DNA from: an uncultured Selenomonadales bacterium
GTDB lineage: Bacteria; Bacillota; Negativicutes; Acidaminococcales; Acidaminococcaceae
Direction of reading: 5' to 3'
Length of the DNA stretch: 64,000 bases
Assembly (NCBI GenBank): GCA_900315345.1
Contig: OMYP01000007.1
Location: 1-64,000 of the forward strand
Every line of letters starts with the position of its first letter. Within the stretch, counting starts at the first letter, position 1. Under the pieces are notes generated by a model, which worked only from the letters and a program-made list of their open reading frames with translations, made no database searches and was not told where the DNA came from. Positions 9,701 through 38,200 of the stretch are shown here, piece by piece. The position numbers and the translations under genes were made by a program.

Positions 9701-9995
9701 TATGGAACCACTCGTTATTTTTCCCGGCCTCCTGTTCATACCCGCACTTGCGGAGGTACGAATGGAATTCCTTGTCCTGAAACTGTTCGTTCGTCCCCTC
9801 ATAAACTGCATTTCCATGCCATTCCAAGTTCCACAAAATATCAGCTGTATGCGTCTGCTGATTGATACGGGTCGCTACGTCCTGCTCCGTATAACCAATC
9901 TTCGTCCAACCGTCGTGACGGGCAATTTCAGGAGTGGTATAGGCATATAATTGCGGAATTACAGACTTGGTAGTCTGAATTGATATTTGTGCCAT
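6711..9995 (-). CDS. Restriction-type SF2 helicase with GIY-YIG-like N-terminus and half methyltransferase
   Basis: The 1094-aa protein has an N-terminal GIY-YIG/T5orf172-like segment (LYAYT near 16-20, KIGYT near 32-36, Arg 43). An SF2 translocase follows with Walker A AKPRFGKT (155-162), DEAH (271-274), SGT (298-300) and a late QAAFRAQNP motif. A charged coiled-coil stretch fills about 720-900. The last about 150 residues hold methyltransferase motif X (FTPKTVVQKMVDML) and a motif I variant (FIDLYMKSGLYITEI), but not motif IV, which is in the separate gene upstream. It probably cleaves or translocates unmodified DNA. The start is 1 base after the preceding stop, so the genes are coupled. 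Confidence 0.85.
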   Translation of the reverse strand: MAQISIQTTKSVIPQLYAYTTPEIARHDGWTKIGYTEQDVATRINQQTHTADILWNLEWHGNAVYEGTNEQFQDKEFHSYLRKCGYEQEAGKNNEWFHITGKESKVKFYEFRETRGAGLDDVVIPYTLRNEQQLAVDMTVKYAQTHPHGEFLWNAKPRFGKTLSTYDLVQKLGAKTVLIVTNRPAIANSWFDDYKKFVGQENGYLFVSEVDALKDRPGVLSREDLMKILTLDTKYIEFVSLQDMKGSIHFGGHYNKLGEVAKQPWDMLVIDEAHEGVDTYKTDVAFDQINRKFTLHLSGTPFKALANNKFSEDAIYNWTYADEQEAKRDWQGEGDNPYGTLPKLNLFTYQMSEIVRDDLKQGIEINGETVEYAFDLNEFFATNNNGQFVHSSSVDKFLDALTTQEKFPFSTEELRGKLKHTFWLLNRVESARVLARKLQEHPVFKDYEIILAAGDGKIDDDDENKKSFDKVKEAIATHDKTITLSVGQLTTGVTIPEWTAVLMLSNVKSPALYMQAAFRAQNPCLFKTANGFERKENSYVFDFDPARTLTIFEEFANDLSSNTAAGRGSVDDRKENIRTLLNFFPVIGEDENGEMVELDAEKVLLIPRKIKSVEVVRRGFMSDFLFCNISHIFGAPKEIQDIINQFEPMEEGKLDKVNLPPEVKDDLCLNEDGEVEVKEEYVIGKEAEVFGDKVYDTQEAIKEVDEHVDEGNTSTLADSLKKLVKEKQIEQIVSDASEKYQLKPTEQNRLTRQLTAESDRKIDKAFAQHDINHKVLEEERKTAMQERDKTHRTVEEIDREYEEKKQAVNQSFKEEVTELLNTITDDTKKETIKTVETSQKQKEKETIEDEVRKHLRGFTRTIPSFLMAYGDNTVTLATFDTVVPGKVFTEVTSITLEQFRLLRDGGDYVDKETGETKHFNGQLFDSVVFDDSVKEFLSLKKKLADYFDEKAIEDIFDYIPPQKTNQIFTPKTVVQKMVDMLEQENPGCFDLPDKTFIDLYMKSGLYITEIVKRLYRSPKMQELYPDKEERLRHIFEKQVYGLAPTEIIYKIAISYILGFDDDVVIPKHNFRQADALPYAKEGKLQELLDELYGD

Positions 9996-9996
9996 T

Positions 9997-11076
9997 TTAT
10001 TTCACCCCTTTCTTATTACTTCCGTTAATAACCTCTTTAACATATGTTATCTCATTATCGGTTAATCCCAATAATTTGTTTAACTGATTATCAATATCTT
10101 CTTTAGAGAAATCCACAAAAATATTTTCATCAGTATAATCTAATATGTCCGGCACTTGTTTTCCTAATGCACTTAATGCTTCATCAGTCATTAAAAACGC
10201 ATATCTTACTATATCCGTTTTTACATAATTATAAAAGTTTTGAGCTTCCTTCAATGTTTTAAACGACCGCAAAGCTACACGAGCACGTCCAAAGGCAGAA
10301 CAATTATCTATTATTGCCAATTGATTATCTCGTCCTTCCTGCCCGCCCCCATGTGCGCTGGAAACAACAACCTGCCATTCTTTAATTAAATTTCTGTTAG
10401 AAGTAATTAAGCCTTCTTTCACAATAAACCATTTACTTCTACCTGCTGACCCAGCTTTGTCATTAGTAAACAGTTTTATTTCATCACTTGCCAACTTACA
10501 GCCTTCATAATATTCACGAACTTTATCCGGATTTTTCTCAACAAAATCACTTTCTACTGAAAACAATGACCTTGGTAAAATACTATCGTGTAAAAAATGT
10601 AATTTATTCTTAACAACAAAATTTGAAATCTTATTAACAATCAAAATGTCATTCGGGTTTAAAGGCATTAACTTTTCCCCGGGATTATCTGTATGAATCT
10701 TATTTTCTGTTCCTTTAACAGCGTAAATATAATTAAATCCAGCATCCACTTTATTGTTGTTCTTCACAACAATGGATATTCCATCGGGGATATCTATAGA
10801 GTTATTAAACACTTCTTTAGAATCAGGAAAAAATTCTATTGTAGAAACTTTCTTATCATTAATTAATTCTTTACCAAACTGTTGCAAGCCTTTTCCCGAT
10901 TGATGTATCCAGCGACCGCCGGGATATATCATGACCGAACTTTGCTTTGTAATCTTATCCGCTTCAATCTGAAAATAATGAAAAATATTCTTACGAGGTT
11001 TTTGCCCATTAATTGTAGATTCCGTCTCAGATTCTTCCTGATACGGCGGATTGCCAATCGCAAAATCGAATTTCAT
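9997..11076 (-). CDS. Methyltransferase half with NPPY motif and putative target-recognition region
   Basis: The 359-aa protein starts MKFDFAIGNPPYQEE, so the catalytic motif IV (NPPY) of an N6-adenine methyltransferase lies at residue 9-12. A complete enzyme would have motifs X and I before it; these are at the C-terminus of the next gene (6711-9995). The rest (residues about 60-359) resembles the Eco57I/type IIG C-terminal part, with a probable DNA-recognition region. The two gene products likely assemble into one enzyme. The gene ends one base before the helicase start. Confidence 0.8.
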   Translation of the reverse strand: MKFDFAIGNPPYQEESETESTINGQKPRKNIFHYFQIEADKITKQSSVMIYPGGRWIHQSGKGLQQFGKELINDKKVSTIEFFPDSKEVFNNSIDIPDGISIVVKNNNKVDAGFNYIYAVKGTENKIHTDNPGEKLMPLNPNDILIVNKISNFVVKNKLHFLHDSILPRSLFSVESDFVEKNPDKVREYYEGCKLASDEIKLFTNDKAGSAGRSKWFIVKEGLITSNRNLIKEWQVVVSSAHGGGQEGRDNQLAIIDNCSAFGRARVALRSFKTLKEAQNFYNYVKTDIVRYAFLMTDEALSALGKQVPDILDYTDENIFVDFSKEDIDNQLNKLLGLTDNEITYVKEVINGSNKKGVK

Positions 11077-11094
11077 AATCGTTGCCCCTTTAAT

Positions 11095-12024
11095 TTACAT
11101 GTATTTCTTAAAAGACTTCTTCATTTTCAACATTACATTTATTAACCAATCGAACTGTTTATCCCATTGCGATTTGTCGTCAAAAGACACGCCGGTCTTT
11201 ATGATAATCCGTGAAGCCTTCCGTTCCGGTAATTCCCGCCAGTCAAAGGAAAGCCCGCTTTCTTTTTCAATCGCTTCCTTGTTCTGGAACAGTGAACGGA
11301 ACAGTTCTTTATCTTCATCAATATATAACTCTACCGCCAGCTCGTCCGTTTTACGCAGCTGTAACACGGAAATATGACAACCGGAAGTCCCGATAAAGAA
11401 ATTCATCCAGTGATCATAGCAGGGTTTCCTGCGGTTAAAGCTTTTGGCAAAGTCTTTATCTTGAAACGCATAATCCTGAAATCCGACCCAGTAATCGAAC
11501 CGTTTCTGGCTTGTTTCCGTATGAACAAGTTCTGCCTTCTTAATTGTTTTGGACCAACCGTTCGGTTGTTCAATCACTTCAAACTTCACCGCCGGGTCCG
11601 ACCCACCAATACGATATAATTTAATCTCGCAAAGGAAGAACGCCATGTTCTCGTCCGTGCGGTTATTCAACCATTCGATAGCCGCCCGGTGTTCCTCACG
11701 GGCATGCTTTACTATCCATATGACGATGTCCGCACCCTTGCCTGAAGCATAGGTAATCAACTTGCCCAAATGGTCATGATTGGTATCTTCCAACTGGTTT
11801 TCTATAATAATCTTCCGGTCGGTTCCTGTTTCAAAAGCATAAATATCCGCATTGAAATCCCCGACGGAAGATTCTTTTTCTTTGACCGTGATGTCAATGC
11901 CAATGGCATCAGACAACAAAACGATATTATCCTCTTGGGATAACCACGGGGTAAAATCCGTTGCTTCATGAGGCCATACCGTTCGTAAATCCTTAATTTC
12001 TTCCAATTTTTTGAGCGTCACCAT
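11095..12024 (-). CDS. PD-(D/E)XK-like nuclease with DUF4268-type C-terminus
   Basis: Residues about 50-90 contain a nuclease-like core: GDFNADIYAF, then a strand RKIIIENQLEDTNHDHLGKLITYA, giving a D...E-x-Q-x8-H-like variant of the PD-(D/E)XK signature. The C-terminal 150 residues (FDYWVGFQDYA, then an RASRIIIKTG strand) look like the DUF4268 domain often found on stand-alone nucleases in defence islands. It stands between the two methyltransferase genes (gaps 20 and 18 bases) in the same operon. It could be the cutting subunit of the system. The family call is from memory. Confidence 0.7.
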   Translation of the reverse strand: MVTLKKLEEIKDLRTVWPHEATDFTPWLSQEDNIVLLSDAIGIDITVKEKESSVGDFNADIYAFETGTDRKIIIENQLEDTNHDHLGKLITYASGKGADIVIWIVKHAREEHRAAIEWLNNRTDENMAFFLCEIKLYRIGGSDPAVKFEVIEQPNGWSKTIKKAELVHTETSQKRFDYWVGFQDYAFQDKDFAKSFNRRKPCYDHWMNFFIGTSGCHISVLQLRKTDELAVELYIDEDKELFRSLFQNKEAIEKESGLSFDWRELPERKASRIIIKTGVSFDDKSQWDKQFDWLINVMLKMKKSFKKYM

Positions 12025-14821: not shown

Positions 14822-17668
14822 TTGGCAATAGCAGGATTTGACGGAAAAAATATAACTAAAAAAATAACTGCCAAAAATCCGAACGGACAAAACATGGTAG
14901 CAAAGTCATCCTATAATAGTCGGTCAATAGTTTTAGACCAGAATGATAATACAAAAAAATATCCGCACGCTCCTAAAAGTGATTTGGAATGTGCTTCAGA
15001 GATTATTTTACCGCCTGGCGCTCCGGAACGATATAAAAATCCATCAACTCTCTGGTCTGAGATTCAGGGAATGAAATATGAAAATATCGGTAAAGCAATG
15101 ATATTAAACTTGCCACATGAAGCCACGGAAGAACAACGACATGAAATGGTTGAGCTGTTTGTTCGAAGAAATTTGACAAGTCAGTTTTTATTTTGCCAGG
15201 TTGATTATCACAAACCTAAAATGATTCCATCAGAAAGCGACCCCAATATTTTAGTTTCAAATAATAATTATCACGCACACATATTGGCGTCAGAACTTCA
15301 AATGATAGGTGGAGAATGGGCAGAAAAAAAATCCGTAAAACCATATGTAGATATAAATGGAGTACCTTTACAAAAAACTAACACGCCAAAACTTAAAAAT
15401 AAAAAATTGCAATACGATGCAGAAGGTAACATTGTATTTAAAAAGGGATGGCAAAAGTTAAAATATAATAACGACGGATCACCCAAATTAAACGAAGACG
15501 GAACCCCAGTCTTAATTGATATCCGCACACCAGAAACCGATGAACAGGGTAACCAAGTTTATAAAATTGATAAGGGCAAACCCAGACCAGTATGGAAACG
15601 AAGAGAAATCCATGCGGCATCCGTAACAAAATTTGGATGGATCCGGGACTTCAGAGAGAGCTGGGGAGAGTGCCAAAACGAAATCTTAAGAAAATATAAT
15701 ATCCGGAACAAAGAAGGCGAACTTGTCCAGGTTGATATGAGGTCATACGCAAGACAGGACGCAGAGCTCAATGATGGCATGAAACGTATTCCGCAAATTA
15801 AAGTGTTCGATCCGTATGTTGAATTAACTGATGATGAAAAAAATTTATCACAACAAACCAAAATAGACATCATAAAAGAAAACAAAAAACGAAAGGCACG
15901 CAACGCGGCCATTAATGAAATCCGAAAATTAAGGAAAGAAAAAAGCAAACTGGATGACTCAATCAAAGTTCAGGCAGAGATCGAACAGAAAGAAAAAGAA
16001 GTCATTTCACAGATTGATCCAAAATCCGAATGGTCACAGGTATGGGTAACCCAGGCAGAAGACCTGTATAAATTTACTTCCAGTTATTATCGCTACACAA
16101 ATGTGCAATTGATTAAAACAATTAACAAAGCCCGTCAATTTATTGAATCAATGCCGAAAAATTTAACAAGAAAAAATCGGATTGAAAAATCAAGGATTAT
16201 AAAACATCATAATCTAATGATAAAATTGGGAAAAAACGTGCGATTGGAAAACCTGACCACCACGGAAACAATTAAAAAATTAGCGGAAGAAGCTTGGGAT
16301 AATCTGAGTGACCAGCAAAAAGTTTCTTTTGTCAGGGACAGGTACGGTTTTGAGACAGGTAAAATTTATGCAAGAGTATTAGCCAGAGAAAAGGACAACC
16401 TCGACATCGTTGACGGGTTGGAACAACCTGCTCCGGAAATTCCGGACGAAAAAACTAATGAAAACATCATCCGTACAGAGTCAGAACATATCTGTGAGAC
16501 ACGGGATTTTATGAGATATCAAGACGCAGCCTATGCAAAATGGGATACCGCATCCTACCAGGCTCCGCCGGTAGAAGTAATTAATGTGCTTGATGTCTGC
16601 GCTACTGTTGACAGATACTATGCAGCTAAACTCACGAAACAATCATGGAACGCCGTCAGTACCGTAGGCGGATTTAATTATAATGTCGAAGATATAGAAA
16701 ACGAAGCACGCCGGGAATACGAACAGCTGGCAGAAAAGGAAGCTGCAGCCAAAGCAAAAGCCGAAGCAGAACAGAAACACAAAGCTGAAGCTGAACGGAA
16801 ACAAAAAGAAGCCGAAGCTACTGCCAAGGCAAAAGTGGAAACAGAGCAGAAACAGAAAGCCGAAGCCGCAGCTAAAGCTAAAATTGCAGCAGAACAGAAG
16901 CAACAGGCAGAACTGATACGACAAGCGGAACTGCAAAAACAACAAGCAGAATATCGCAAACAGCAGGTGCGGATCGGCTACGCGCGACTCATTCCGCAGG
17001 TCCAGCTTGCTGTTAAACAAAAAGATCAGGATACTGTCAACAAAATATCAACACTGGTTCGCAGTGCCTTTACGGAAGAAGAAATTGAAATGAAATATAA
17101 AGGATCTAAATCCTGGAGAGACACGGAAATGAATTCCATGATCAACAAGCTTATTGATATCAAAAGTTATGGCGGTATCAATGAAGATGCTAAGCGAGAA
17201 TTGGAAAAACAGATCTTTAATAAACGCGGTAAACCGGGTAAACCGATCCTCCGTACAATAAATAAAATGATTGCAGAGCACAATCAGACTGCATCGAAAT
17301 ATAACCAAATCGACGTAAAAGAGTATAGAAAATATAGCGATGAAGCGAACTTCTGGTATATAATACAAAATCCTGACAAAGCCATCCGCAGCAACAAGGC
17401 AGAACCCCCTGCCATTAGCAAAGGAACACCGGAACTGCAGAATGAGACACCCAAGAGGCGTAGTGCAAGAAGCCTCCCCGAACCTACGTCTAATCAGCAT
17501 GGGACCGTCCCTGCTTGGGAAGTTCTGCCAGACGGGACTGTTAAGCCCATGGCCATCGGTCCGAATGTGTTGAAAAAAGATAACGACCACGAAAAATCAG
17601 AGATGGAAAAAGCAGAGGACGAACTTTACCAAGGCTGGGACCCGGGGAAACATGGACACGGGATGTAA
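14822..17668 (+). CDS. MOBQ-family conjugative relaxase (MobA/MobL)
   Basis: The 948-aa protein starts at a TTG behind GAGGAAA. Residues about 25-150 have the relaxase order: SSYNSR (with the likely nicking Tyr), YPHAPKSDLECASEIILPPGAPERY, TLWSEIQGMKYENIGKAMILNLP, and the metal-binding NNYHAHI (HxH) motif. A long helical C-terminal region follows, with a strongly Ala/Glu/Lys-rich coiled coil at about residues 635-720. It would nick oriT, bind the 5' end covalently and lead transfer. No type IV secretion genes are visible in the window, so the element is at least mobilisable. Confidence 0.85.
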   Translation: MAIAGFDGKNITKKITAKNPNGQNMVAKSSYNSRSIVLDQNDNTKKYPHAPKSDLECASEIILPPGAPERYKNPSTLWSEIQGMKYENIGKAMILNLPHEATEEQRHEMVELFVRRNLTSQFLFCQVDYHKPKMIPSESDPNILVSNNNYHAHILASELQMIGGEWAEKKSVKPYVDINGVPLQKTNTPKLKNKKLQYDAEGNIVFKKGWQKLKYNNDGSPKLNEDGTPVLIDIRTPETDEQGNQVYKIDKGKPRPVWKRREIHAASVTKFGWIRDFRESWGECQNEILRKYNIRNKEGELVQVDMRSYARQDAELNDGMKRIPQIKVFDPYVELTDDEKNLSQQTKIDIIKENKKRKARNAAINEIRKLRKEKSKLDDSIKVQAEIEQKEKEVISQIDPKSEWSQVWVTQAEDLYKFTSSYYRYTNVQLIKTINKARQFIESMPKNLTRKNRIEKSRIIKHHNLMIKLGKNVRLENLTTTETIKKLAEEAWDNLSDQQKVSFVRDRYGFETGKIYARVLAREKDNLDIVDGLEQPAPEIPDEKTNENIIRTESEHICETRDFMRYQDAAYAKWDTASYQAPPVEVINVLDVCATVDRYYAAKLTKQSWNAVSTVGGFNYNVEDIENEARREYEQLAEKEAAAKAKAEAEQKHKAEAERKQKEAEATAKAKVETEQKQKAEAAAKAKIAAEQKQQAELIRQAELQKQQAEYRKQQVRIGYARLIPQVQLAVKQKDQDTVNKISTLVRSAFTEEEIEMKYKGSKSWRDTEMNSMINKLIDIKSYGGINEDAKRELEKQIFNKRGKPGKPILRTINKMIAEHNQTASKYNQIDVKEYRKYSDEANFWYIIQNPDKAIRSNKAEPPAISKGTPELQNETPKRRSARSLPEPTSNQHGTVPAWEVLPDGTVKPMAIGPNVLKKDNDHEKSEMEKAEDELYQGWDPGKHGHGM

Positions 17669-18106: not shown

Positions 18107-18433
18107 CTATTCAATAGACTTCTTACGTTTTTCTGCTATATCATATACTTCATCATCTTCACGAATCCCGATAACAACAATAAGCATTTGGCTTTCGGTT
18201 CGTATCAATTTGTATACGATTCGAACTCCTTCCTTTAAAAGTTTAATTTTGAGAAAATTGGTCAAGTTCTTTCCGTGTTTTTTACCTAACGGTTTGCCGT
18301 ATCCATTTTCACTTTGAGGTAAAGGATTTTGTTGAACCTTCTTAATAGCTTTTAATATCGTTATTTGTGTAGATTTATTAAAGCTTTCTAAATCGTCTTG
18401 TGCCTCCGGCAAGTATTTGACAGTCCAAGTCAT
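18107..18433 (-). CDS. RelE/ParE-superfamily toxin
   Basis: The 108-aa protein starts MTWTVKYLPEAQDDLESF, the typical N-terminal strand and helix of RelE/ParE toxins. It continues with PLGKKHGKNLTNFLKIKLLKEGVRIVYKLI and ends with IVVIGIREDDEVYDIAEKR, matching the conserved central and C-terminal strands. Its start overlaps the antitoxin stop by 4 bases. RelE members cut ribosome-bound mRNA and ParE members target gyrase; the sequence alone does not decide. As part of a plasmid-like element it likely stabilises inheritance. Confidence 0.85.
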   Translation of the reverse strand: MTWTVKYLPEAQDDLESFNKSTQITILKAIKKVQQNPLPQSENGYGKPLGKKHGKNLTNFLKIKLLKEGVRIVYKLIRTESQMLIVVIGIREDDEVYDIAEKRKKSIE

Positions 18434-18756
18434 CCGATTTCCACCTCTTCAAAACCTTTTAAATCTTCTTCGGTTATACCAAGGCGGCGGTTGGATTCGT
18501 CTTCAGATATTAGTGTGTCGGTATTAATGTTTTGTGTCCGTTCAATGGCAGTGGCCAACAGACGTGCATCGTTAACTTCGTCAATTAGTGCCATATACTG
18601 TTCCGGTGACATCAACACACATTCAGCTACGTTGTTTTTCATTACGACCTTTGCGCCATTTGATTTTACGTCCTTAAAAATCTTGCTTGCCAATCCTCTA
18701 TTAAACTGTGTTATCGCAACGGTATTTGTGATTGCGCTTGTTAAACTGGACATCAT
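18430..18756 (-). CDS. Phd/YefM-type antitoxin
   Basis: The ATG at 18756 (or the next one at 18753) follows CGGAGGAAC; the upstream frame lies across the promoter. Residues about 5-60, AITNTVAITQFNRGLASKIF then GAKVVMKNNVAECVLMSPEQYMAL, match the Phd/YefM N-terminal DNA-binding fold. The acidic C-terminus would wrap the toxin. A consensus promoter lies directly upstream, and antitoxins of this type autorepress with their toxin. Confidence 0.85.
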   Translation of the reverse strand: MMSSLTSAITNTVAITQFNRGLASKIFKDVKSNGAKVVMKNNVAECVLMSPEQYMALIDEVNDARLLATAIERTQNINTDTLISEDESNRRLGITEEDLKGFEEVEIG

Positions 18757-18781
18757 ATGTTCCTCCGATCTTTTTGCTTTG

Positions 18782-18810
18782 ATTATACAATCAATGCAAA
18801 ACGTTGTCAA
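18782..18810 (-). promoter_or_regulatory. Sigma-70-type promoter of the toxin-antitoxin operon
   Basis: On the minus strand TTGACA (18810-18805), a 17-base spacer and TATAAT (18787-18782) form a perfect consensus, ending 25 bases before the antitoxin start. Confidence 0.8.
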
Positions 18811-18862
18811 TAAATTTAACGATAAATAAATCGTTATTAAAAACAAACTTGCATCAATGAAG

Positions 18863-18909: not shown

Positions 18910-18934
18910 CGGCGGAATGCATCGCTTTCCGCCG
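18910..18934 (-). terminator. Terminator of the RNA-maintenance operon (hairpin family member)
   Basis: CGGCGGAA pairs with TTTCCGCCG around TGCATCGC. Read on the minus strand it lies 32 bases behind the PTH2-like stop and runs into TTTTTTG. Confidence 0.7.
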
Positions 18935-18966: not shown

Positions 18967-19410
18967 CTATTTATACAGTTGTAAACGCTTAACCACAGGC
19001 TTCACCCGACTAACCTCCATGGGCCGGAAGCCAATCGCAATGAAACAACGGTCGCTACCGTCATCAGGAAGCAGCTCCGTCAAGCAATTGTCCCTGATGC
19101 AGAAAAAATCCTTGCCTTCGACCAGCCCATTCTCCTTTGCCGTTACCACTACTTTTTCCAAAGCATGCAGATTTTTAGCTTCCAGTAAGACTTTAGTAAA
19201 AATCCCTGTCAACCAACACAAGGTATCGTCGTCTAAATCAAAAGCAACATGTCCTTCCTTTTCGTTATCCAACACCAGGTTAGACAAGAAAGCCATAGAA
19301 GCATGAGCCACCATCACAGCAAGCTTATGAGCCGATACAGGCTCGCCTGTTACCGTACGTGCATCTTTACGAACAACAAGGTATTGTTTTATAGTTTCAA
19401 CGTTATTCAT
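18967..19410 (-). CDS. PTH2-family (peptidyl-tRNA hydrolase-like) protein
   Basis: The 147-aa protein has KQYLVVRKD, then SAHKLAVMVAHASMAFL, a central ALEKVVVTAKENGL and a C-terminal CFIAIGFRPMEVSRVKPVVKRLQLYK. These correspond to the PTH2 core: first strand with Lys-Asp, the helix with HAS, and the late AIGP-like and LY segments. PTH2 enzymes free tRNA from peptidyl-tRNA. The usual KGK before the helix is not clear, so activity is uncertain. It overlaps the next upstream gene (19407) by four bases and is the last gene of the operon. Confidence 0.65.
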   Translation of the reverse strand: MNNVETIKQYLVVRKDARTVTGEPVSAHKLAVMVAHASMAFLSNLVLDNEKEGHVAFDLDDDTLCWLTGIFTKVLLEAKNLHALEKVVVTAKENGLVEGKDFFCIRDNCLTELLPDDGSDRCFIAIGFRPMEVSRVKPVVKRLQLYK

Positions 19411-19943
19411 AATACACCCTCGAAAAACGCTACGATTTCTTCTAGGCTTACTGGCCGGAAATCGTTCGCATCCACCCCTACGTCGAATTGGTGTCGCCCA
19501 TTTTCCCGGTTCGCCAGATTGTATTCCACCGGGCTGTGCAGATGACCATGCAGATTATAGGACCCATGGGAATCCTTGTTCCACGCCACAAAAGGGTAAT
19601 GGCACAACACGAACGTCCGGTTCTGCCAGTGCAGCTCATGATACATTTTGACCCATTCGATACCGGAAGCCCTCGGATCAAACGTCTTCTCTCGCGCAAA
19701 ATAGTCGTGATTGCCCATGAGCAGATATTTTCTGCCTTTTAATCTGGCAATAATTTCGGTAGCCCGGGCAGGACGCACCATGGTCACGTCGCCCAAAATG
19801 AAGACCTCATCGTTCTGATGGACAGTCTTGTTCCAGTATTCTATCAGCTTTTCATTCATCTCTTCTATCGTCTCGAAAGGCCGGTTGGTATAAACAATGG
19901 CATTCTTATGCCAAAAATGCAAATCAGAAGTACAATAAATCAT
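19407..19943 (-). CDS. Calcineurin-like metallophosphoesterase 1, 178 aa
   Basis: All metal-binding motifs are present: SDLHFWH (residues 6-12), GDV, GNHD, CHYP and HGHLH. This is a small single-domain enzyme of the type common in phages and mobile elements. It resembles the next gene (19960-20487) over its whole length, so the pair is a tandem duplication. The substrate is unknown; given its neighbours a phosphate at an RNA end or a cyclic nucleotide phosphate is a reasonable guess. Confidence 0.85.
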   Translation of the reverse strand: MIYCTSDLHFWHKNAIVYTNRPFETIEEMNEKLIEYWNKTVHQNDEVFILGDVTMVRPARATEIIARLKGRKYLLMGNHDYFAREKTFDPRASGIEWVKMYHELHWQNRTFVLCHYPFVAWNKDSHGSYNLHGHLHSPVEYNLANRENGRHQFDVGVDANDFRPVSLEEIVAFFEGVL

Positions 19944-19959
19944 TTAACATCACCTATTT

Positions 19960-20487
19960 CTATCCAAAAAACTTAACAACATTTTCAATGTTAACAGGCT
20001 TATAATTATTGGCATCAACACCCACGTCATACCTCTTCAGCCCAGCCTGCAGCTGCTGATAGTTATACACTGCCTTATTATGCTGGTGCCCGTGCAAATG
20101 GATGGCGCCTTTGTAAAAATCGGCCCATTCCGTAATCGGATAATGGAACAGCACAAATTTCTGGTTGCTCACAACCAGTTCATGATATTCCTTAACCCAC
20201 AGAAAGACCCAGCCGTACTCTTTCCACGCATGATTATCTACAAAATAGTCATGGTTCCCTTTAACCAGATATTTTTTCCCTGTCAACCGGGACAGCACGG
20301 CAAAGGCCTGTTCCGGCCCTTTCATGGTCACATCGCCCAGGATATAGACTTCGTCATCCGGGCCGACGGTACCGTTCCAATTTTGTATTAATCTTTCGTT
20401 CATTTCCTGCACATCCCGGAACGGACGGCTGCAATGCCGGATAATTTTTTCATGGTAAAAATGCTGATCTGAAGTAAAGTAAATCAT
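19960..20487 (-). CDS. Calcineurin-like metallophosphoesterase 2, 175 aa
   Basis: It has SDQHFYH at the N-terminus, GDVTM, GNHDYF, FHYPITEW and HGHQH, all conserved metal ligands. The first motif has Gln in place of the Leu of its paralogue, not of a ligand. Gaps to both neighbours are only 14-16 bases. The two paralogues were kept side by side, which suggests distinct substrates or partners. Confidence 0.85.
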   Translation of the reverse strand: MIYFTSDQHFYHEKIIRHCSRPFRDVQEMNERLIQNWNGTVGPDDEVYILGDVTMKGPEQAFAVLSRLTGKKYLVKGNHDYFVDNHAWKEYGWVFLWVKEYHELVVSNQKFVLFHYPITEWADFYKGAIHLHGHQHNKAVYNYQQLQAGLKRYDVGVDANNYKPVNIENVVKFFG

Positions 20488-20501
20488 TTTTCATCTCCTT
20501 T

Positions 20502-21221
20502 TCATGCCTGCCAAAACTTTTTACTCAACACATCCACACAACTTAATTTGCCCCCGTCCATGCATGCGCCAGTATCGCACAGGATAATATTGTTCTCCAA
20601 AAACTGCGGCGTTGTCGGAGGCGTATCAGAACCCATCCAATGCTTCTTCTTCAAAACACGCGTCGGTGTATGCCCGACCACAATCGTGCCATTCCGCCCG
20701 TCGTACAAATCAAAGAAACCTTCCCGCATCCAAATTAAATCACTTTCCCGCTGCTTTTTCAGGGGGATATAGGGTTGTATCCCGGCATGGCAGAAATAGT
20801 AATCACCTACCTGATAGTGATTAGGCAACATCTTCATCCAGCGCAACCGTTTCTGCAGTTCAGGCTTTTTCAATGTCTTGAACTGTTTAAAAGTATCTCT
20901 CCCGCCATTATCCAGCCAGACCAGAACCATCTGCTTGCCAAAATTATCCATCAGGGAACGTTTCCGTGCTTCGTAATCATAGTAATTGATACACATGGCC
21001 TCGTGGTTCCCCAATAACGGGATTACCCGCTCAGGGTACATTTGCTGAAGATTCATCACGTAATCCAGGCATTCCAAGGATTGCGGTCCCCGGTCAATGT
21101 AGTCACCCAGAAAGATCAGCAGATCGTCTTCCGGATCGAATTTTACTTTTTCCAGTAGCGCAATTAACTTACCATACATGCCGTGGATATCACCAACGGC
21201 TAAAATACGTTTAAATTCCAT
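20502..21221 (-). CDS. PPP-family phosphatase (PrpE / lambda phosphatase / ApaH-like)
   Basis: The 239-aa protein contains GDIHG (residues 12-16), GDYIDRG, GNHEAM, CHAGI and VVGHTPT, the PPP-family signature. Members remove phosphate from proteins or cut dinucleoside tetraphosphates, including cap-like NpnN ends on RNA. It is a different branch of the metallophosphatase fold from the two genes downstream, giving three such enzymes in one operon. It starts 5 bases after the stop of the RlaP-like gene. Confidence 0.85.
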   Translation of the reverse strand: MEFKRILAVGDIHGMYGKLIALLEKVKFDPEDDLLIFLGDYIDRGPQSLECLDYVMNLQQMYPERVIPLLGNHEAMCINYYDYEARKRSLMDNFGKQMVLVWLDNGGRDTFKQFKTLKKPELQKRLRWMKMLPNHYQVGDYYFCHAGIQPYIPLKKQRESDLIWMREGFFDLYDGRNGTIVVGHTPTRVLKKKHWMGSDTPPTTPQFLENNIILCDTGACMDGGKLSCVDVLSKKFWQA

Positions 21222-21226
21222 AATTC

Positions 21227-22225
21227 TTACTCTCGATTAACAGTTTCCCTATTTACTTCAATAACAAATTCTTCAATCCGAGCCATATCCGCTTTCTCTG
21301 GAAGCGATGTGTTTTCCGCCGCATACTGGAATTTCTTTTCCCATTCGTTGACCAAATCAAAAAACTCAGATTTAAAAGTGTGATCGCTGTTTTGGAATTT
21401 ACCGTTACGGATATCCATCAATAAATCATGTTCCTTTTCCCTGTACGTATGCAACGTTCCTTTTTCCAGCAGTTCCGTACCAGTGCAAAACAGACGTACC
21501 AGGTGCATCGCATGTTTGTTCAGATGCCTATCATCCTTCTTACTATTTCGATGGTTCAACTTTTCAAAGGCACGGATCGCAGCCACCATCTCAGACAGCA
21601 TACCATGCGCCTGCCGGAGCGGATATCCTTTTACTTCCATATCCGTCAGCAACTGCCCACCTTCAATATAAACCTTCATTTTATATTGTTCGTTATACCG
21701 GTCATTGAACGTCATAAGCATTGTCTGCAACGTTCCTAAAATATGTTTCTGCTTTTCCTCATCCGGATAGGCATCATGAGCCAGCGCATTTTGCAGGCGG
21801 CGAAGCTGGGCATTTGCATATCCTCCAAATGTAGCTACCGCCCGTCTGGAAAAGAACATATCCTGATTTGCAATCAGCTTTTTCCCCGTTTCATCTAAAA
21901 TCAGATAGTCTTCTTTCCGCAGACCAATCATATCCAAAATACTGGGATTACATTCTGCCAGCAGGCCGATCACTTTATTGAACGCATACACTGTGGTATC
22001 TGTATTATCGTCAATTATCTGTTCAAACTTTTGCAGTCCCAAAATAGATTCTTTCGTATTATAAGCAATGCCGCGAATATCAATATCGCTGCCCGGCACA
22101 TTGGTACCATACGCATGGCTGCCAGAAAATCCAAGCAAAAAGATTCCTTCTTTCAATTCCGGAATCGTTTTAAGGAACTGATACTCTGGCAAGCCCAACA
22201 GATTTTTCTTCTCATTCCTGTTCAT
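21227..22225 (-). CDS. RlaP/YcgL-type nucleotidyltransferase (PF10127-like)
   Basis: The 332-aa protein has GSHAYGTNVPGSDIDIRG at residues 35-52, the diagnostic GSxAYG...SDxDxRG motif of this DNA-polymerase-beta-fold family, with Asp 47 and 49 as metal ligands. The family was named RlaP because it is predicted to act in RNA repair. A helical C-terminal domain (KHAMHLVRLFCTGTELL) follows. It overlaps the CCA-adding enzyme gene by four bases (ATGA), so both products are made together. Its true substrate is unknown. Confidence 0.85.
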   Translation of the reverse strand: MNRNEKKNLLGLPEYQFLKTIPELKEGIFLLGFSGSHAYGTNVPGSDIDIRGIAYNTKESILGLQKFEQIIDDNTDTTVYAFNKVIGLLAECNPSILDMIGLRKEDYLILDETGKKLIANQDMFFSRRAVATFGGYANAQLRRLQNALAHDAYPDEEKQKHILGTLQTMLMTFNDRYNEQYKMKVYIEGGQLLTDMEVKGYPLRQAHGMLSEMVAAIRAFEKLNHRNSKKDDRHLNKHAMHLVRLFCTGTELLEKGTLHTYREKEHDLLMDIRNGKFQNSDHTFKSEFFDLVNEWEKKFQYAAENTSLPEKADMARIEEFVIEVNRETVNRE

Positions 22226-23709
22226 TTCTTCAGCCTCTTTTCCCTTAAAACTATATTCATCACTGCATCAGCTAAAGCAGCTTCTTCATTTTTTATTGAA
22301 CCATCCTGCACACGTTTCAGCAGATAATCAAACACGTCACGAATATCCAGCCCTGTGCCTTGAATCATAGCCAAAACCGAAGAGCCCTTTATAGCCAAAT
22401 CACTACTATGTACCGGGAACTGTTCCTCAATCAGCCGGTGGACAAACACCATCTTTTCATGCAAAGTTTCCAGTTCCTCTTCACTGTGGCGGCTAGCGCC
22501 CAGGTCTGCTGCAAAAATCTTTTCCAGTTCTTTAAACGCAGCAGCCAAATCCTTTTGCGTACGGAAGTCCGCCACCTTGCTTCGCACCCAATGCTTCATC
22601 TGTCGCTTATTCGCTGTCAGCAAAACAGGCATGGCCATGTGATTTTTCACTAACCAGCAAACTTCTTTTACAAAGCTGTCATTGTAGCCAAATGCGGTCA
22701 ACGCTTCCGCAACAATGCGGGCCGATTCCGCCTCATGTCCATAATCTGTCGGCATTCCGGTTTCGGGCTTGATCCGGCGCACGGTTTCCAATCCTTTTCC
22801 AGCGTCATGGAACAGCATCGCCCAACGCAGTTTAAGATCCTGCTGCACGAGGCGTACCGCCTGAAGTGTATGGTTCCATGCGTCATACATATGGTACTTT
22901 GGATTCTGTTCCAAATTTTCCAAATGAGATAATGATTCCAACGGTTCTTCGTAAATCATTATTCCTTTTTTCTTAACAACGAACGGGCTATGAATCAATC
23001 CGCTTGTCATCAACAGAGACAGCCCTTTGACAGGTTCCGGTCCGCTCAACAGTTTTTCCATTTCCTGTCTGACACGTTCCATGGAAAGATTTTTAGCATT
23101 GCATTCCTGCCAGAAATCTCTTCTTACAAATACAGAGCTTGCCTTACCTACATCGTTCTCAGTGTAAGTAAAACCCAGCTGAGAAACAAACCGACAGGCA
23201 CGGTACATCCGTAAGGGATCTTCCATATAACACTCTACCGGATCGCCGACAGTGCGCAACAATTTTTTCTTTATATCTTCCCTGCCATGCCAGGGATCAA
23301 TGATATTTCCCTCGCTGTCTATCGCCATGGCATTCATTGTAAAGTCACGGCGCACCAGGTCTTCCTCAATCGTTTTGGAAAAAGTTACCGATTCAAGCCG
23401 GTGGGCATTTTTCGAACCATATACCTCATTGCGGAACGTTGCAATCTCAATCGGCAAGCCGTCAAACAGGCCTACTACGACACCAAAATTATTACCCAGC
23501 TTTTCTACTACCGGAATATTTTCAATTTTAAGCGCTGCCAGCACCTCTTCAGGCGTCAGGTCAGACGCAATATCATAATCATGAGGCTTTTTACTCATGA
23601 TCAAATCCCGAACAGCGCCGCCAACAATATAAGGTTTACCACCTGCCTGCTTCAGAACAAACATTGCACGCATCACTGACTTTGGCAGTTTATCCAATAC
23701 ATTCATCAT
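22222..23709 (-). CDS. cca: CCA-adding tRNA nucleotidyltransferase with HD domain
   Basis: The 495-aa protein has GGAVRDL and HDYDIASD (residues 30-50; Asp 44 and 46 bind metal), then GTVxR-type FTMNAMAID and the PLRMYRACRF region. A C-terminal HD phosphohydrolase domain follows (LFHDAGKG, GHEAESA, KNHM). It builds or repairs the 3' CCA of tRNA, and the HD domain can remove 2',3'-cyclic phosphates. Bacteria normally have this gene on the chromosome; here it is carried by the mobile element. ATG at 23709 or 23706 are equally possible starts. Confidence 0.9.
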   Translation of the reverse strand: MMNVLDKLPKSVMRAMFVLKQAGGKPYIVGGAVRDLIMSKKPHDYDIASDLTPEEVLAALKIENIPVVEKLGNNFGVVVGLFDGLPIEIATFRNEVYGSKNAHRLESVTFSKTIEEDLVRRDFTMNAMAIDSEGNIIDPWHGREDIKKKLLRTVGDPVECYMEDPLRMYRACRFVSQLGFTYTENDVGKASSVFVRRDFWQECNAKNLSMERVRQEMEKLLSGPEPVKGLSLLMTSGLIHSPFVVKKKGIMIYEEPLESLSHLENLEQNPKYHMYDAWNHTLQAVRLVQQDLKLRWAMLFHDAGKGLETVRRIKPETGMPTDYGHEAESARIVAEALTAFGYNDSFVKEVCWLVKNHMAMPVLLTANKRQMKHWVRSKVADFRTQKDLAAAFKELEKIFAADLGASRHSEEELETLHEKMVFVHRLIEEQFPVHSSDLAIKGSSVLAMIQGTGLDIRDVFDYLLKRVQDGSIKNEEAALADAVMNIVLREKRLKK

Positions 23710-23773
23710 AAATCACCATATTCTTATATTCCGTAACTCTTATCCGCAATTGACAATTTTCTTATTTACGCTC

Positions 23774-24304
23774 TTACCCTTTCGCCTGTTCAATATCAAT
23801 GCCATTGCAACTCAAAAGAATGTCATGCCTTACTTTAGCATCCGTCCCGTTAATATCTTCATCAGACAGGAAGCTTTCCAATTTAGCTTTCTTCCCAATG
23901 GCCAAGTATAAATGCCCTAATTTTGATATATAATTTTTCTGATACACATTCGGGCCATAATTCATACTATCTTTTACTTTATAGGGCACCAAATACTGTT
24001 CTTCGCTGCCGTCTTCATAATACACTTTGATTTGGGTGATATCCGAATACGAAACAATTCTGTTTATTATTGACATAGTAATGTTGCCTTCTTTGCAGGA
24101 ATTAAGAGTTTCGTCATCAACTTCAGCAAAAATTTCTATAAATACCTTTTTGGCAATCTTATGTTTTTCTATAGCGTTTGATGCGGTTCTTTCAACTTTA
24201 GTACTGATTCTGCCAATATAAAAGACACCAAGGAAGCTAAAAGGTATCCTGACATACTCGCAGTTTTCAAAAACGATATCAATGAACTTCACAAATTTTG
24301 ACAT
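23774..24304 (-). CDS. Protein of unknown function, 176 aa, first gene of the RNA-maintenance operon
   Basis: It starts with AAGGAG upstream. It is rich in beta strands early (FVKFIDIVFENCEYVRIPFSFLGVFYIGRI) and ends with a helical segment. No membrane segment, and no RNA-ligase motif KxDG is visible. It precedes the cca gene by 64 bases with no terminator between, so it likely belongs to the same transcript. I do not recognise the family. Confidence 0.5.
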   Translation of the reverse strand: MSKFVKFIDIVFENCEYVRIPFSFLGVFYIGRISTKVERTASNAIEKHKIAKKVFIEIFAEVDDETLNSCKEGNITMSIINRIVSYSDITQIKVYYEDGSEEQYLVPYKVKDSMNYGPNVYQKNYISKLGHLYLAIGKKAKLESFLSDEDINGTDAKVRHDILLSCNGIDIEQAKG

Positions 24305-24733: not shown

Positions 24734-25144
24734 TCAAGACTTCCAACCATCCATCAGAGCCTGCTCCTTAGCAAAAACCATCAAAGCAGCTAAAAAATCA
24801 CTCTGAGAGTAACCGTAAAATTGTCGGACAGCATCAAAATCTTCCTTCACATCAGAAGTAGTCCGAATCGTCATTGTTACATCTTTTGCACTTTTCTCCT
24901 GTTTATGCAGATAACAGCCATCTGACCACGTTTTTTGTTTGTCATTCTGTTTGTCTTTCTGTTTTACATCTTCTTTTACATTTTGTTTTGCATTATTTTC
25001 GGGTTTGTCTTTTTCTTCAGAGCCCACCATTTTCGTCTTAACAGCATCAACACGCTGAACGCCCAGCCCGGCCTGCTGGCTCTGCACCCGGCTAACCATT
25101 GCAAGCGCAGGATTATTTAAACTAATATTTTTCTTATCCATCAT
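24734..25144 (-). CDS. ParA partner with RHH-like C-terminus, 136 aa
   Basis: The ATG at 25144 overlaps the parA stop by 4 bases. Residues about 35-75 are a low-complexity Lys/Asp/Gln/Asn linker; the C-terminal 50 (VTMTIRTTSDVKEDF, FYGYSQSDFLAALMVFA) look like a ribbon-helix-helix unit. It stands where ParB/ParR centromere-binding proteins are usually encoded. A classical ParB with HTH is absent. The same C-terminal pattern recurs in the gene on the other side of parA. Confidence 0.6.
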   Translation of the reverse strand: MMDKKNISLNNPALAMVSRVQSQQAGLGVQRVDAVKTKMVGSEEKDKPENNAKQNVKEDVKQKDKQNDKQKTWSDGCYLHKQEKSAKDVTMTIRTTSDVKEDFDAVRQFYGYSQSDFLAALMVFAKEQALMDGWKS

Positions 25145-25893
25145 GCAACCCCCAGTTCTTTAAGGAATTTCTCATAGTCATACGCAACATTACTTGTCAT
25201 TTTATCATCATAGTCGAATAAACCAACCTGCCGGGCCATCGCTTCCGAGATAGTCACGCCCTCTCGGATTTTCGTATGGAAAACTTTGGTTCCAATAGCT
25301 TCCGCCGTTTCTTCAATCATTTCACGCATCTGACGGTTGATAATTAATCGTTCCTTAAATCGGGTCAGAAGGATCCCCTCAATTTTAACAGACGGGTCCT
25401 GGACAGCCTGTACCAGCTCATACATCCCTCCCAGCCCCTGTAAATTAAACACATCCGCAGCCATCGGAATAACCACACTATCTGCAGCAGACAAAGCTAA
25501 AACGGTGAGGGTACCCAATGCAGGAGCCGTGTCAATAATAATATAATCTACAATATCATCCAAAGCATTCAGTTCTTGCTTCAAATTCACAGCAACTGAA
25601 TCAATACCGTTTTCTATGTTAGCCAAGGAAGCAGAACCAGACAACAAATACATACCTTCTTTCCCCTGATACAGCTGTAACGCTTCACGGACAGCAATCT
25701 TTCCAGTCAAGACATCATACAGCCCGGGCTGCTCTAAAACTGCTGCCAACGAATAAGACGCATTTGCCTGGCTATCTGCATCAACCAACAATACACGTTT
25801 CTCAGAAACAGAACCTAAATACGAAAACATAGCAGTCGCAGTTGTAGTCTTGCCACAGCCGCCTTTTCTGTTAGATACCACAAAAATTTTCAT
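25141..25893 (-). CDS. parA: ParA-type partition ATPase
   Basis: The ATG at 25893 follows AAAGGAGG. The 250-aa protein starts MKIFVVSNRKGGCGKTTTA, the deviant Walker A motif with the signature Lys, followed by VLLVDADSQANAS and later YIIIDTAPALG (Walker B region). It lacks an N-terminal HTH, so it is the small (type Ib) form, whose operon is usually autoregulated by the small partner protein. It moves plasmid copies along the nucleoid. A perfect 13-bp palindrome lies in its leader. Confidence 0.9.
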   Translation of the reverse strand: MKIFVVSNRKGGCGKTTTATAMFSYLGSVSEKRVLLVDADSQANASYSLAAVLEQPGLYDVLTGKIAVREALQLYQGKEGMYLLSGSASLANIENGIDSVAVNLKQELNALDDIVDYIIIDTAPALGTLTVLALSAADSVVIPMAADVFNLQGLGGMYELVQAVQDPSVKIEGILLTRFKERLIINRQMREMIEETAEAIGTKVFHTKIREGVTISEAMARQVGLFDYDDKMTSNVAYDYEKFLKELGVA

Positions 25894-25939
25894 TATAAAG
25901 CCTCCTTTTTCGCAGACACACACAAAGACAATCAAAATA

Positions 25940-25952
25940 ACAAACAGTTTGT
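25940..25952. promoter_or_regulatory. 13-bp palindrome upstream of parA, probable operator
   Basis: ACAAACAGTTTGT is a perfect palindrome around a central A, 47 bases before the parA start. Small partner proteins of ParA commonly bind such sites and repress the operon. Similar CAAACT/AGTTTG elements occur before the polymerase gene (5955-5968). Confidence 0.55.
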
Positions 25953-26013
25953 CAATTGTAAAACATAAAGTTACAACTATAGGCGGGGGCTGCTCCCCCG
26001 CCAGTTCGTCCAA

Positions 26014-28622: not shown

Positions 28623-28662
28623 GGTTCAAACCCGCATGGTTGACGCATTTAAAAATCGGTTT

Positions 28663-28863
28663 CATACTTGCTGCCTACCAATTCATACTTGCTGCCTACC
28701 AATTCATACTTGCTGCCTACCAATTCATACTTGCTGCCTACCAAATTCTCATACTTGCTACCTACCAGTTTTCATACTTGCTGCCTACCAATTTTCATAC
28801 TTGCTGCCTACCAATTTTCATACTTGCTACCTACCAATTTTCATACTTGCTACGTACCAATTT
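28663..28863. repeat. Iteron array of the second replicon (9 copies)
   Basis: Nine direct repeats with core CATACTTGCTGCCTACCA start at 28663, 28684, 28705, 28726, 28750, 28773, 28796, 28819 and 28842. Spacing is 21 bases for the first three steps and then 24, 23, 23, 23 and 23. Copies 5, 8 and 9 have a TACC or TACG variant after TTGC. It is unlike the RepB iterons in sequence. Confidence 0.9.
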
Positions 28864-28880
28864 TGCCAACACCAAATTTA

Positions 28881-29915
28881 TTATTTTTTTAACGGAACTA
28901 ATTTCATTCTTTTTCCGTCCGCATTAATTAATTCAACCTCAGCACCTTCAAACAAACTTTCTTCCTTCATAGGAAAGTCAATAAAATCAAAATAAACCTT
29001 CATGTTAATAAACTTATCGTAGTCCAAAGAATCCATATCGCCTTCAAAACGCTCATTAGTAACATTATCAATGAAGTACCAGCATTTTATTACTCCATAA
29101 TCAACCAATGCATTCATATCACGTATAAACGGACGTATAATGCGTTGCCTAAGTCCACCAATAACATTCAACGTTTCACGTTTCGGAATATCCGGAGCTA
29201 CATCAACAAGTTCCGCAACTGATACAATATTCCGGCGAGGCTTATAAAAGTTCATCTTATATAAAACATTAAGGTGTTTACCCAACGCATACGCATTAGG
29301 AAACTTAGTAGTCTTAATTGAAAATAAAGCCACAGAATACGGCATGATCGACGCTGAAGGTAGATATTCAGCCAATTTATCACCAAGAATAACTTTAATC
29401 TTAGAATTCTTTATTGAACTTTCATCTACCGAGCAGCCAACACCCTGCAAAATAACAGACTTCCATACAGTAGCATCTTCAGGTTTCTTGTTTCGGCCCC
29501 TGACAGAAATATTAAGCTGTTCAATTTTAATATTTTGTAAATTATTAATTGTTTCAATGACCAGTTCACGAGTAGAATGCATAGACATTTTAAATAACGC
29601 AGAAATCTCATGCAGGTCTAAAATCATTTCCTTATTTGCATTAATTACATCTTTTGGCGCATTAGCAGGAACTTTAGCAGTGAACTTCGTAACAATGTAG
29701 TCAAACATCTGCGCCGTACGGCAAGACATGTTGACCCGTTTCGGAAAAATCCAATACACTACATTATCGTCAAGCCGTCGAGCAACTGGCAATTCTACAT
29801 TACCGTCATTTTTCTTTAGAAAACGCTTAATAAGGTTTAAAGAAAACATAGACAAATTATTAGTGACAGGTGATTGAAAGATAGGCGCATAAATTCCTTT
29901 ACAAACATCAGTCAT
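28881..29915 (-). CDS. Second replication initiator (Rep), 344 aa
   Basis: The 344-aa protein is adjacent to nine iterons and a DnaA box, and begins with TDVCKGIYAPIFQSPVTNNLSMFSL, followed by a helical region (SCRTAQMFDYIVTKF) and paired strand-helix segments such as IMPYSVALFSIKTTKFPNAYALGKHL. The pattern fits a winged-helix plasmid initiator, but I cannot name the family. It is not similar to the first RepB. The iterons lie beyond its 3' end, 18 bases from the stop, so the origin is downstream of the gene instead of upstream. Confidence 0.65.
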   Translation of the reverse strand: MTDVCKGIYAPIFQSPVTNNLSMFSLNLIKRFLKKNDGNVELPVARRLDDNVVYWIFPKRVNMSCRTAQMFDYIVTKFTAKVPANAPKDVINANKEMILDLHEISALFKMSMHSTRELVIETINNLQNIKIEQLNISVRGRNKKPEDATVWKSVILQGVGCSVDESSIKNSKIKVILGDKLAEYLPSASIMPYSVALFSIKTTKFPNAYALGKHLNVLYKMNFYKPRRNIVSVAELVDVAPDIPKRETLNVIGGLRQRIIRPFIRDMNALVDYGVIKCWYFIDNVTNERFEGDMDSLDYDKFINMKVYFDFIDFPMKEESLFEGAEVELINADGKRMKLVPLKK

Positions 29916-32667: not shown

Positions 32668-32744
<77 letters not shown>

Positions 32745-37839: not shown

Positions 37840-38200
37840 TTTTTTTACATTATTTATGAAATTTTTTCTGTTTTACCGTTTCCCCAGTTTTACTATTTAT
37901 CAGATACCATAAAAAAGAGCTTTTGTCCCAATTATGAGACAAAAGCTCTGCTTCTGCGGTACCACTCATTTTGGCGGAAATGCTTCCGCCCACTCACAAG
38001 GCTTCTTTGGTAACGGGAGAAGAACCCGGCGGCTGCTACTCGTAAAAGCGCTGCGTTGTCATCAGATACACTGCACGCTGCATTTTCGTTCCGCCCTTAA
38101 AAGTCCATTCGGCAAATTCTACCCGCCGCCTTTCCAGCACCGGCGGCTCTCTGCAGGGAATTTCCTTTGCTTACTCTTCTTTATCATCGGTTTAAAAAAA
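37840..38200 (-). promoter_or_regulatory. T-box riboswitch (Trp) with terminator ahead of trpB
   Basis: On the minus strand the antiterminator signature AGTGGTACCGC lies at 37967-37957, and a terminator hairpin AGAGCTTTTGTC/GACAAAAGCTCT with a TTTTTT tail at 37949-37911. The stem I region (about 38190-38090) contains GAATGGAC, where TGG in specifier position predicts tRNA-Trp binding. Uncharged tRNA-Trp would turn on trpB. Exact leader start not determined. Confidence 0.85.

Follow-up and report, generated by a model that had tools for sequence, protein, structure and literature searches.

Seven adjacent genes on a plasmid-like element of an uncultured Selenomonadales bacterium encode a CCA-adding-type enzyme, an RlaP-family nucleotidyltransferase, three phosphatases, a PTH2-like protein and a protein of an uncharacterized phage family, which raises the question of whether they act as one system that restores damaged tRNA, as a sequence-only reading of the locus had proposed. 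We analyzed the 64,000-nt stretch of DNA that contains them (hereafter, the window) together with the host genome and the same gene families in viruses and plasmids.

Layout and carrier of the operon

The seven ORFs, named A to G in order of transcription, all lie on the (−) strand, with ends matching those given earlier and intergenic distances of 64, −4, 5, 14, 16 and −4 nt. Thus, the gaps of at most 64 bases, the two 4-base overlaps and the terminator that had been described were all found as stated. The predicted intrinsic terminator (positions 18910 to 18934, [−] strand) consists of an 8-pair hairpin, which has a 2-pair inner stem, and a U6 tail downstream of it, and its fold of −19.1 kcal/mol (56 nt folded) was equaled by 3 of 200 shuffles; it is absent from the list returned by the consensus scan. 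This layout suggests that the seven genes form a single transcript. Upstream, a promoter-like site (24612 to 24583, [−] strand; TTGACA-18-TATCAT, 11/12 consensus plus TG) lies 279 nt from the ATG of gene A, but it is weak evidence and proves nothing, because the region is poorer in such sites (n = 10) than its shuffles (mean, 14.4). Folding of the 146-nt leader upstream was not more stable than that of its shuffles, and a search for RNA leaders or riboswitches across the operon returned a single match, to a human lncRNA model, far under the gathering score.

The carrier had been described as an integrated plasmid. Its plasmid character is borne out by gene content (Rep3, ParA, MobA/MobL, DnaB/Toprim and integrase), and no virion protein was found among the element's ORFs that were scanned, which are a part of all its ORFs. 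Integration, for which the tRNA-Arg gene was considered as the site, is only putative: the contig begins at window base 1, and the 3′ end of tRNA-Arg has no second copy within the window. Among 380 genomes of the class, RlaP occurs in 22 and PTH2 in 1.

Domain composition of the seven proteins

Profile searches upheld the earlier family assignments (CCA enzyme with HD domain, RlaP, PPP phosphatase, two tandem metallophosphoesterases and PTH2-like protein), with Pfam E-values far from chance. Gene A (23774 to 24304, [−] strand; 176 aa) encodes a beta-rich protein that matches the uncharacterized phage family phrog_2349, while a single-sequence scan of viruses returned two partial relatives only. 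Gene B (22222 to 23709, [−] strand; 495 aa) encodes a class II CCA-adding-type tRNA nucleotidyltransferase with RNA-binding and HD domains (PF01743, 6.6e-33; PF12627, 4.3e-08; PF01966, 1.4e-07). The head, RNA-binding domain and catalytic motifs of class II enzymes are present, with GGAVRD (30), DYD (44), RRDFT (120) and HDAGK (301) intact, and the best profile match to a solved CCA enzyme reached 6.3e-44. Against the NCBIfam equivalog, the protein scored 214, below the cutoff of 290, a score that does not assign CCA-adding versus A- or CC-adding specificity. Since the same genome carries a second CCA enzyme (contig C8, 76519 to 76902), gene B is an extra copy.

Gene C (21227 to 22225, [−] strand; 332 aa) encodes an RlaP-family nucleotidyltransferase of the DNA-polymerase-beta fold, scoring 63 bits against a PF10127 cutoff of 23 (4.5e-17). 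Gene D (20502 to 21221, [−] strand; 239 aa) encodes a PPP-type metallophosphatase (PF00149, 1.3e-22; phrog_246, 7.6e-56) with intact GDIHG, GDYIDRG, GNHE and GHTP motifs; it scored 83, 69 and 36 bits with the ApaH, PPP and Pnkp models, respectively, all under the curated cutoffs. The tandem genes E (19960 to 20487, [−] strand; 175 aa) and F (19407 to 19943, [−] strand; 178 aa) encode small metallophosphoesterases of the phrog_547 type (3.5e-48 and 2.9e-52; PF00149, 5e-06 and 6.8e-08, respectively) that are 48% identical, with metal motifs intact in E and motifs likewise intact in F. As judged from these family matches, the products of D, E and F are candidate RNA-end phosphatases, but they could also act on nucleotides or proteins.

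Gene G (18967 to 19410, [−] strand; 147 aa) encodes a PTH2 (archaeal/eukaryotic-type) peptidyl-tRNA hydrolase, scoring 41.3 bits against a PF01981 cutoff of 23 (2e-10) and 31.6 against an NCBIfam equivalog cutoff of 126, under which it falls. Its best profile match among solved peptidyl-tRNA hydrolases is 24bt (2.6e-11). K29 and D107 are invariant in a 31-row alignment and T111 is conserved in at least 90%; all three align with a solved PTH2, and we take them to be the catalytic Lys, Asp and Thr of PTH2.

No RNA ligase, kinase, methyltransferase or HEPN toxin domain was found in the seven proteins with Pfam, and PADLOC returned only weak matches (best E-value 0.00038, PDC-S10 for gene D). The earlier observation that no RNA ligase motif is visible could be extended to the whole host genome (98% complete) for two ligase families: neither RtcB (PF01139; positive control, 9/14) nor PF09414 (positive control, 6/14) was found. 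For a third family, PF09511 (Rnl1), the control gave no match.

Linkage of RlaP, the CCA enzyme and PTH2 in mobile elements

The predicted recurrence of RlaP with CCA genes in mobile elements was found in viruses. RlaP and a CCA gene lie within 10 kb of each other in 28 of 44 non-redundant viral loci and adjoin with a gap of <100 nt in 20 of them. The gene order is RlaP-CCA in 26 of these 28 loci, whereas it is CCA-RlaP in the window. In phylogenetic analysis, the window CCA enzyme grouped with bacterial CCA enzymes (24-row split, support 100/99) and fell outside a 36-row viral CCA group (support 99/99); on this placement, it is of bacterial, not phage, descent. Because of this descent and the reversed gene order, the CCA-RlaP pairing was probably assembled separately here, which argues for a joint function. 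A scan of 118 RlaP-neighbor ORFs yielded matches that include RNA ligases, RtcB, Thg1, TROVE, HAD_SAK_2 and cREC, as well as phrog_547 and phrog_246, the phosphatase families of the window. PF09414 matched in 14 of the 44 RlaP viral records, and RtcB/ligase ORFs were present in 15 of 62 RlaP loci (three queries).

The expectation that PTH2 would join this pair held only in part. Among 50 long PTH2-bearing viral records, 22 contain RlaP, 21 PF09414 and 12 a CCA gene, but close linkage is nearly absent: within 10 kb of PTH2, RlaP occurs in 1 of 122 loci and CCA in none (0/122), which weighs against the proposed co-occurrence with PTH2. RlaP and CCA are both present in 7 of the 50 records versus 5.3 under independence, i.e., about equal, and 4 of the 44 RlaP viral records contain PTH2, two of them weakly. 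Contig-length coincidences between homologue lists (PTH2-CCA, 3; RlaP-CCA, 2; PTH2-RlaP, 1) would hint at more contigs that hold both PTH2 and CCA but are given no weight here, because shift controls with means of 0.33, 0.30 and 0.19 reach the same numbers (maxima 3, 2 and 1). The window PTH2 retrieved no plasmid record and two distant phage records by tblastn, and a single-sequence scan of viruses retrieved none; the whole operon had no DNA-level match in plasmids or phages. We saw the complete set within one operon at no other locus.

Among the closest known gene sets is a C. difficile RNA-repair island on a 130-kb circular replicon, recorded once as a phage (Clostridioides phage AR1086-1, OR397124) and once as a plasmid (CD161, NZ_CP029155). 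Both records contain KptA, RlaP, PTH2, phrog_2349 and RtcB within 20 kb. The island thus shares RlaP, PTH2 (diverged in the CD161 plasmid) and the gene A family with the window, but it has KptA and RtcB and spreads its genes over 18 to 20 kb, whereas the window carries a compact operon. No CCA match was found in the 41- and 38-kb stretches searched, and in related records, an ATP-grasp ligase homologue lies near RlaP.

Ligase-based RNA repair systems (RtcB, Rnl, Pnkp-Hen1), reportedly described by Burroughs and Aravind in 2016, resemble the window in RlaP and the candidate end-healing phosphatases but possess a ligase, whereas the operon is without ligase, kinase and methyltransferase domains. 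A section of a study on jumbo phages predicts that RlaP, CCA-adding enzyme, PTH2 and calcineurin-like/HD phosphatases, all common to the window, serve RNA repair or ribosome rescue and reverse attack on tRNA (Iyer et al. 2021, section 3.4.9, PMC7824862). According to the same section, RlaP owes its name to an association with RNA ligases, which its distribution follows in jumbo phages. The RNA-repair idea for these parts has therefore already been put forward; that repertoire, as presented there, is carried by large phages with RNA ligases, while the novelty here is a single compact operon, probably free of ligases, on a mobilizable element.

A possible route of tRNA restoration and its alternatives

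Our leading interpretation, which falls a little short of an even chance, is that the seven genes may form a ligase-free kit for tRNAs that RNA-targeting toxins or defenses have damaged or blocked, restoring their acceptor ends. First, tRNA 3′ ends would be rid of 3′ or 2′,3′-cyclic phosphates or of pyrophosphates by the metallophosphatases and HD domain. Lost 3′ nucleotides would then be put back by the CCA enzyme, with RlaP perhaps taking part, and PTH2 would release tRNAs held as peptidyl-tRNA or N-acyl-aminoacyl-tRNA, after which the restored tRNA could be recharged and both element and host would go on translating. We infer that the attack repaired is more likely to fall on the acceptor end than on the anticodon loop, since mending a break in that loop would require a ligase. 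There are examples of attack at the acceptor end and of rescue from it: toxSAS enzymes attach pyrophosphate to the tRNA CCA end, from which a phage SSU5 small alarmone hydrolase, a single enzyme rather than an operon, removes it (PMC11559606); TacT is reversed by Pth (PMC9241777); and CdiA-CT cuts 3′ acceptor regions (PMC9071432).

Since RNA ligases go with RlaP where the jumbo-phage section describes them (PMC7824862), a ligase may instead be supplied in trans. The phosphatases would then heal anticodon-loop cuts, RlaP would restore the lost nucleotide, and resealing would fall to a ligase that is either unrecognized or encoded by a co-resident phage. The ligase matches in RlaP and PTH2 viral records and in RlaP loci agree with such classical repair, but the failure to find RtcB or PF09414 in the host genome or a ligase in the seven proteins, together with the action of CCA enzymes and PTH2 at the acceptor end, makes it unlikely in our judgment. 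Only marginally less probable is a loose accretion of phage-type housekeeping genes, in which CCA maintenance, nucleotide clean-up and protein dephosphorylation are separate and transcription alone is shared. The single sighting of the full set, the missing linkage of PTH2 with RlaP-CCA elsewhere and the greater similarity of gene D to ApaH/PPP enzymes than to Pnkp would fit this, whereas the overlapping stop and start codons, the shared functional theme, the RNA-repair neighbors of RlaP and the separate descent of its CCA partner speak against it. We consider it quite improbable that the set modifies rather than repairs, with RlaP as an AMP-transferring antitoxin of the MNT type or with nucleotidyltransferase and phosphatases making and breaking a nucleotide signal, given that the seven proteins contain no HEPN toxin domain, that their PADLOC matches are weak, and that CCA enzymes and PTH2 act on tRNA.

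As for the proposal that tRNA-damage restoration is the work of one system, the RlaP-CCA linkage and the RNA-repair neighbors favor it, while the rarity of PTH2 linkage and the occurrence of the full set only here do not. More tentative still than acceptor-end restoration itself is its extended form, a transmissible, ligase-independent operon that was assembled apart from phage RlaP-CCA cassettes, has a CCA enzyme of bacterial origin and might let plasmid and host survive tRNA-directed toxins and abortive-infection defenses.

RlaP is a very large family (6,853 matches among 7,998 candidates scored), and we know of no test of its activity. A compact ligase-free operon offers a small, reconstitutable system in which to study the activity of RlaP and the reasons for which bacterial mobile elements carry PTH2. 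If the restoration reading is true, plasmids, and not jumbo phages alone, would carry a general tRNA insurance that could simultaneously weaken a large number of toxin and abortive-infection systems.

Operon and carrier element

All seven open reading frames of the operon lie on the minus strand between 24304 and 18967, as the sequence-only reading had placed them, with spacings of 64, −4, 5, 14, 16, and −4 nt, and its terminator was borne out by a GC-rich hairpin and U6 tract 3′ of the last gene (G). Pfam, NCBIfam, and PHROGs were concordant on the operon's contents and upheld the families named in the sequence-only reading: gene B encodes a CCA-adding-type nucleotidyltransferase with an RNA-binding domain and an HD domain; C, RlaP (reportedly named by Burroughs and Aravind in 2016); D, a PPP-type metallophosphatase; E and F, tandem small metallophosphoesterases of family phrog_547 that share 48% identity; and G, PTH2. 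The product of gene A belongs to the uncharacterised family phrog_2349, and all seven proteins matched phage protein families in PHROGs. In B to G, the motifs that we take to be catalytic are intact. Just downstream of the operon terminator, 18107–18846 encodes a ParE-like toxin and a YefM/Phd-like antitoxin, the latter scoring below the Pfam cut-off, and this pair has perfect −35 and −10 elements (TTGACA-17-TATAAT at 18810–18782).

Judging by gene content, the window left of a tRNA-Arg gene (32668–32744) looks like a plasmid. It encodes MobA/MobL (14822–17668), ParA (25141–26013), a resolvase, a Y-family polymerase, a DnaB/Toprim protein, and a restriction-like cluster (6711–12024) comprising a ResIII helicase with a T5orf172 domain, a 359-aa Eco57I-type methylase ORF, and a DUF4268 protein; a tyrosine integrase gene adjoins tRNA-Arg. 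A Rep3 initiator (1894–2991) adjoins an iteron-like array (3032–3197), and a weaker Rep3-like protein below the Pfam cut-off (28881–29915) adjoins a second array of different sequence (28640–28887), which would fit either a double replicon or two fused plasmids. The G+C content is 0.436 in the operon and 0.40–0.42 in two further parts of the element, against 0.493 beyond 33 kb. The earlier description as an integrated plasmid agrees with the plasmid gene content, but a second copy of the tRNA-Arg end was not found within the window, at whose base 1 the contig starts. With no more than one mismatch, the 15-base motif TTTGCCGATAAAAAA occurs three times (13060, 24707, and 32495; 0.04 expected), each copy lying between main genes. 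A family of 20-base sequences starting AATGCGTAGCTTT has five copies across the element; both repeats are possible recombination or binding sites. Right of tRNA-Arg, the minus strand carries two T-box leaders (37932–38196 and 57771–58002).

Recurrence of the operon families

Among 62 viral RlaP loci (44 after removal of near copies), a CCA gene lay within 10 kb of RlaP in 39 (28 of 44) and abutted it, with a gap of <100 nt, in 27 (20 of 44). The order was RlaP–CCA in 26 of 28 viral loci, the reverse of that in the operon. A scan of 118 ORFs neighboring viral RlaP revealed matches to RNA ligases (PF09414, four; RtcB, two; Rnl1, one), Thg1 (three), metallophosphoesterases (four), phrog_547 (two; the E/F family), and phrog_246 (two; the D family), as well as TROVE, HAD_SAK_2, and cREC, with HNH endonucleases about equally common. 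In one 164-kb viral contig (the L114 record, G426), genes for RlaP, a PF09414 RNA ligase, and a CCA enzyme all fall inside a 5-kb stretch (133760–138412), with PTH2 elsewhere on the contig.

The PTH2 survey covered 122 loci (78 viral and 44 from genomes), with PTH2 detected in 121 at the threshold used. RlaP lay within 10 kb of PTH2 in one locus, and a phrog_547-type phosphoesterase was present in 19 (near copies included), directly abutting in one (L066). The 50 long viral PTH2 records contained RlaP in 22 (18 over the cut-off), CCA in 12, and a PF09414 match in 21 (14 over the cut-off); all three of PTH2, RlaP, and CCA occurred in seven, near the 5.3 expected under independence, with RlaP and CCA at most 4 kb apart in three of these. 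Counted from the RlaP side, PTH2 was present in 4 of 44 viral records, two of them weak.

In Clostridioides difficile AR1086-1 (recorded as a phage) and CD161 (recorded as a plasmid), a stretch of about 20 kb holds KptA, RlaP, PTH2, RtcB, and phrog_2349, the family of gene A (records L232, OR397124 78821–119819, and L233, NZ_CP029155 1–37985). Related records L208–L213 and L221 are presumably linked to C. difficile, given their likeness to the named ones; an ATP-grasp ligase homologue lies ~0.5 kb from RlaP in related records, with a length of ~1.3 kb in L208 and L213 but only a short ORF in L209–L211 and L221. Pairs and triples of operon families thus recur, both in mobile replicons and amid RNA-repair genes. 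The proposed recurrent co-occurrence in mobile elements holds for RlaP–CCA and other pairs and triples, but CCA was within 10 kb of PTH2 in none of the 122 loci, and the complete compact operon was found once, in this window, within the collections searched (metagenome contigs excluded).

Descent and host background

In the maximum-likelihood phylogeny, the CCA enzyme of the window fell among bacterial ones (24 rows, 100/99), that of the host included, and not in a 36-row viral group (99/99); one viral row (L173) was placed elsewhere on a long branch. This tree has only a midpoint root, and its unnamed-protein rows were picked because they resemble the window protein, so their grouping is of limited weight. 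The window RlaP fell in a group of its own, largely of unnamed proteins (18 rows, 100/100), apart from the main viral groups, as did PTH2 (25 rows, 100/99), which was also apart from archaeal PTH2 and had one huge-phage row (L048) inside. The descent of the CCA enzyme and the reversed gene order suggest that RlaP was joined to a CCA enzyme more than once; repeated joining would, in turn, argue for joint function.

Since the host carries another CCA enzyme gene on the same contig, right of tRNA-Arg, B is an extra copy. The host's own enzyme groups with one attributed to Succiniclasticum ruminis, a hint as to its kin. PTH2 is single-copy in the host genome, within the operon, and had no match in the 379 other genomes of the class; RlaP matched in 22 of 380, and both together occurred only in the host. 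Neither a PF09414 RNA ligase nor RtcB was found in the host genome (given as 98% complete).

Proposed restoration of tRNA acceptor ends

CCA enzymes restore tRNA 3′ ends. Acyl blocks, pyrophosphate blocks, and CCA loss would be mendable without joining two RNA pieces; deeper acceptor cuts would need additional nucleotides, which RlaP may supply. The HD domain of B may contribute 2′,3′-cyclic phosphodiesterase activity, by analogy with a plasmid record's annotation of E. coli cca. Acceptor-end damage of several kinds has been described: toxSAS toxins put a pyrophosphate block on the CCA end, which a phage SSU5 hydrolase takes off (PMC11559606), CdiA-type toxins cut acceptor regions (PMC9071432), and MenT toxins extend acceptor ends (PMC10435456). 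Bacterial Pth releases tRNA from peptides and undoes N-acetylation by TacT (PMC9241777); carrying this activity over to PTH2 would be an extrapolation. Because healing-type phosphatases occur in the operon together with two nucleotidyltransferases and a hydrolase that frees tRNA, and neither RtcB nor PF09414 was detected in the genome, we infer that acceptor-end restoration fits it better than anticodon-loop repair.

RlaP, CCA enzymes, PTH2, and calcineurin-like/HD phosphatases have been predicted to serve jumbo phages in tRNA repair and ribosome rescue, and RlaP tracks ligases in them (Iyer et al. 2021, PMC7824862). Among the titles and abstract openings listed, a scope mostly outside subscription papers, none described such an operon on a plasmid. 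The tRNA-restoration system proposed from the sequence was right in theme, but its single-system part comes from one complete example and recurrent pairs, on which a single system of seven genes is plausible. What is new here is the ligase-free, acceptor-end reading of an RNA-repair theme already predicted for phages.
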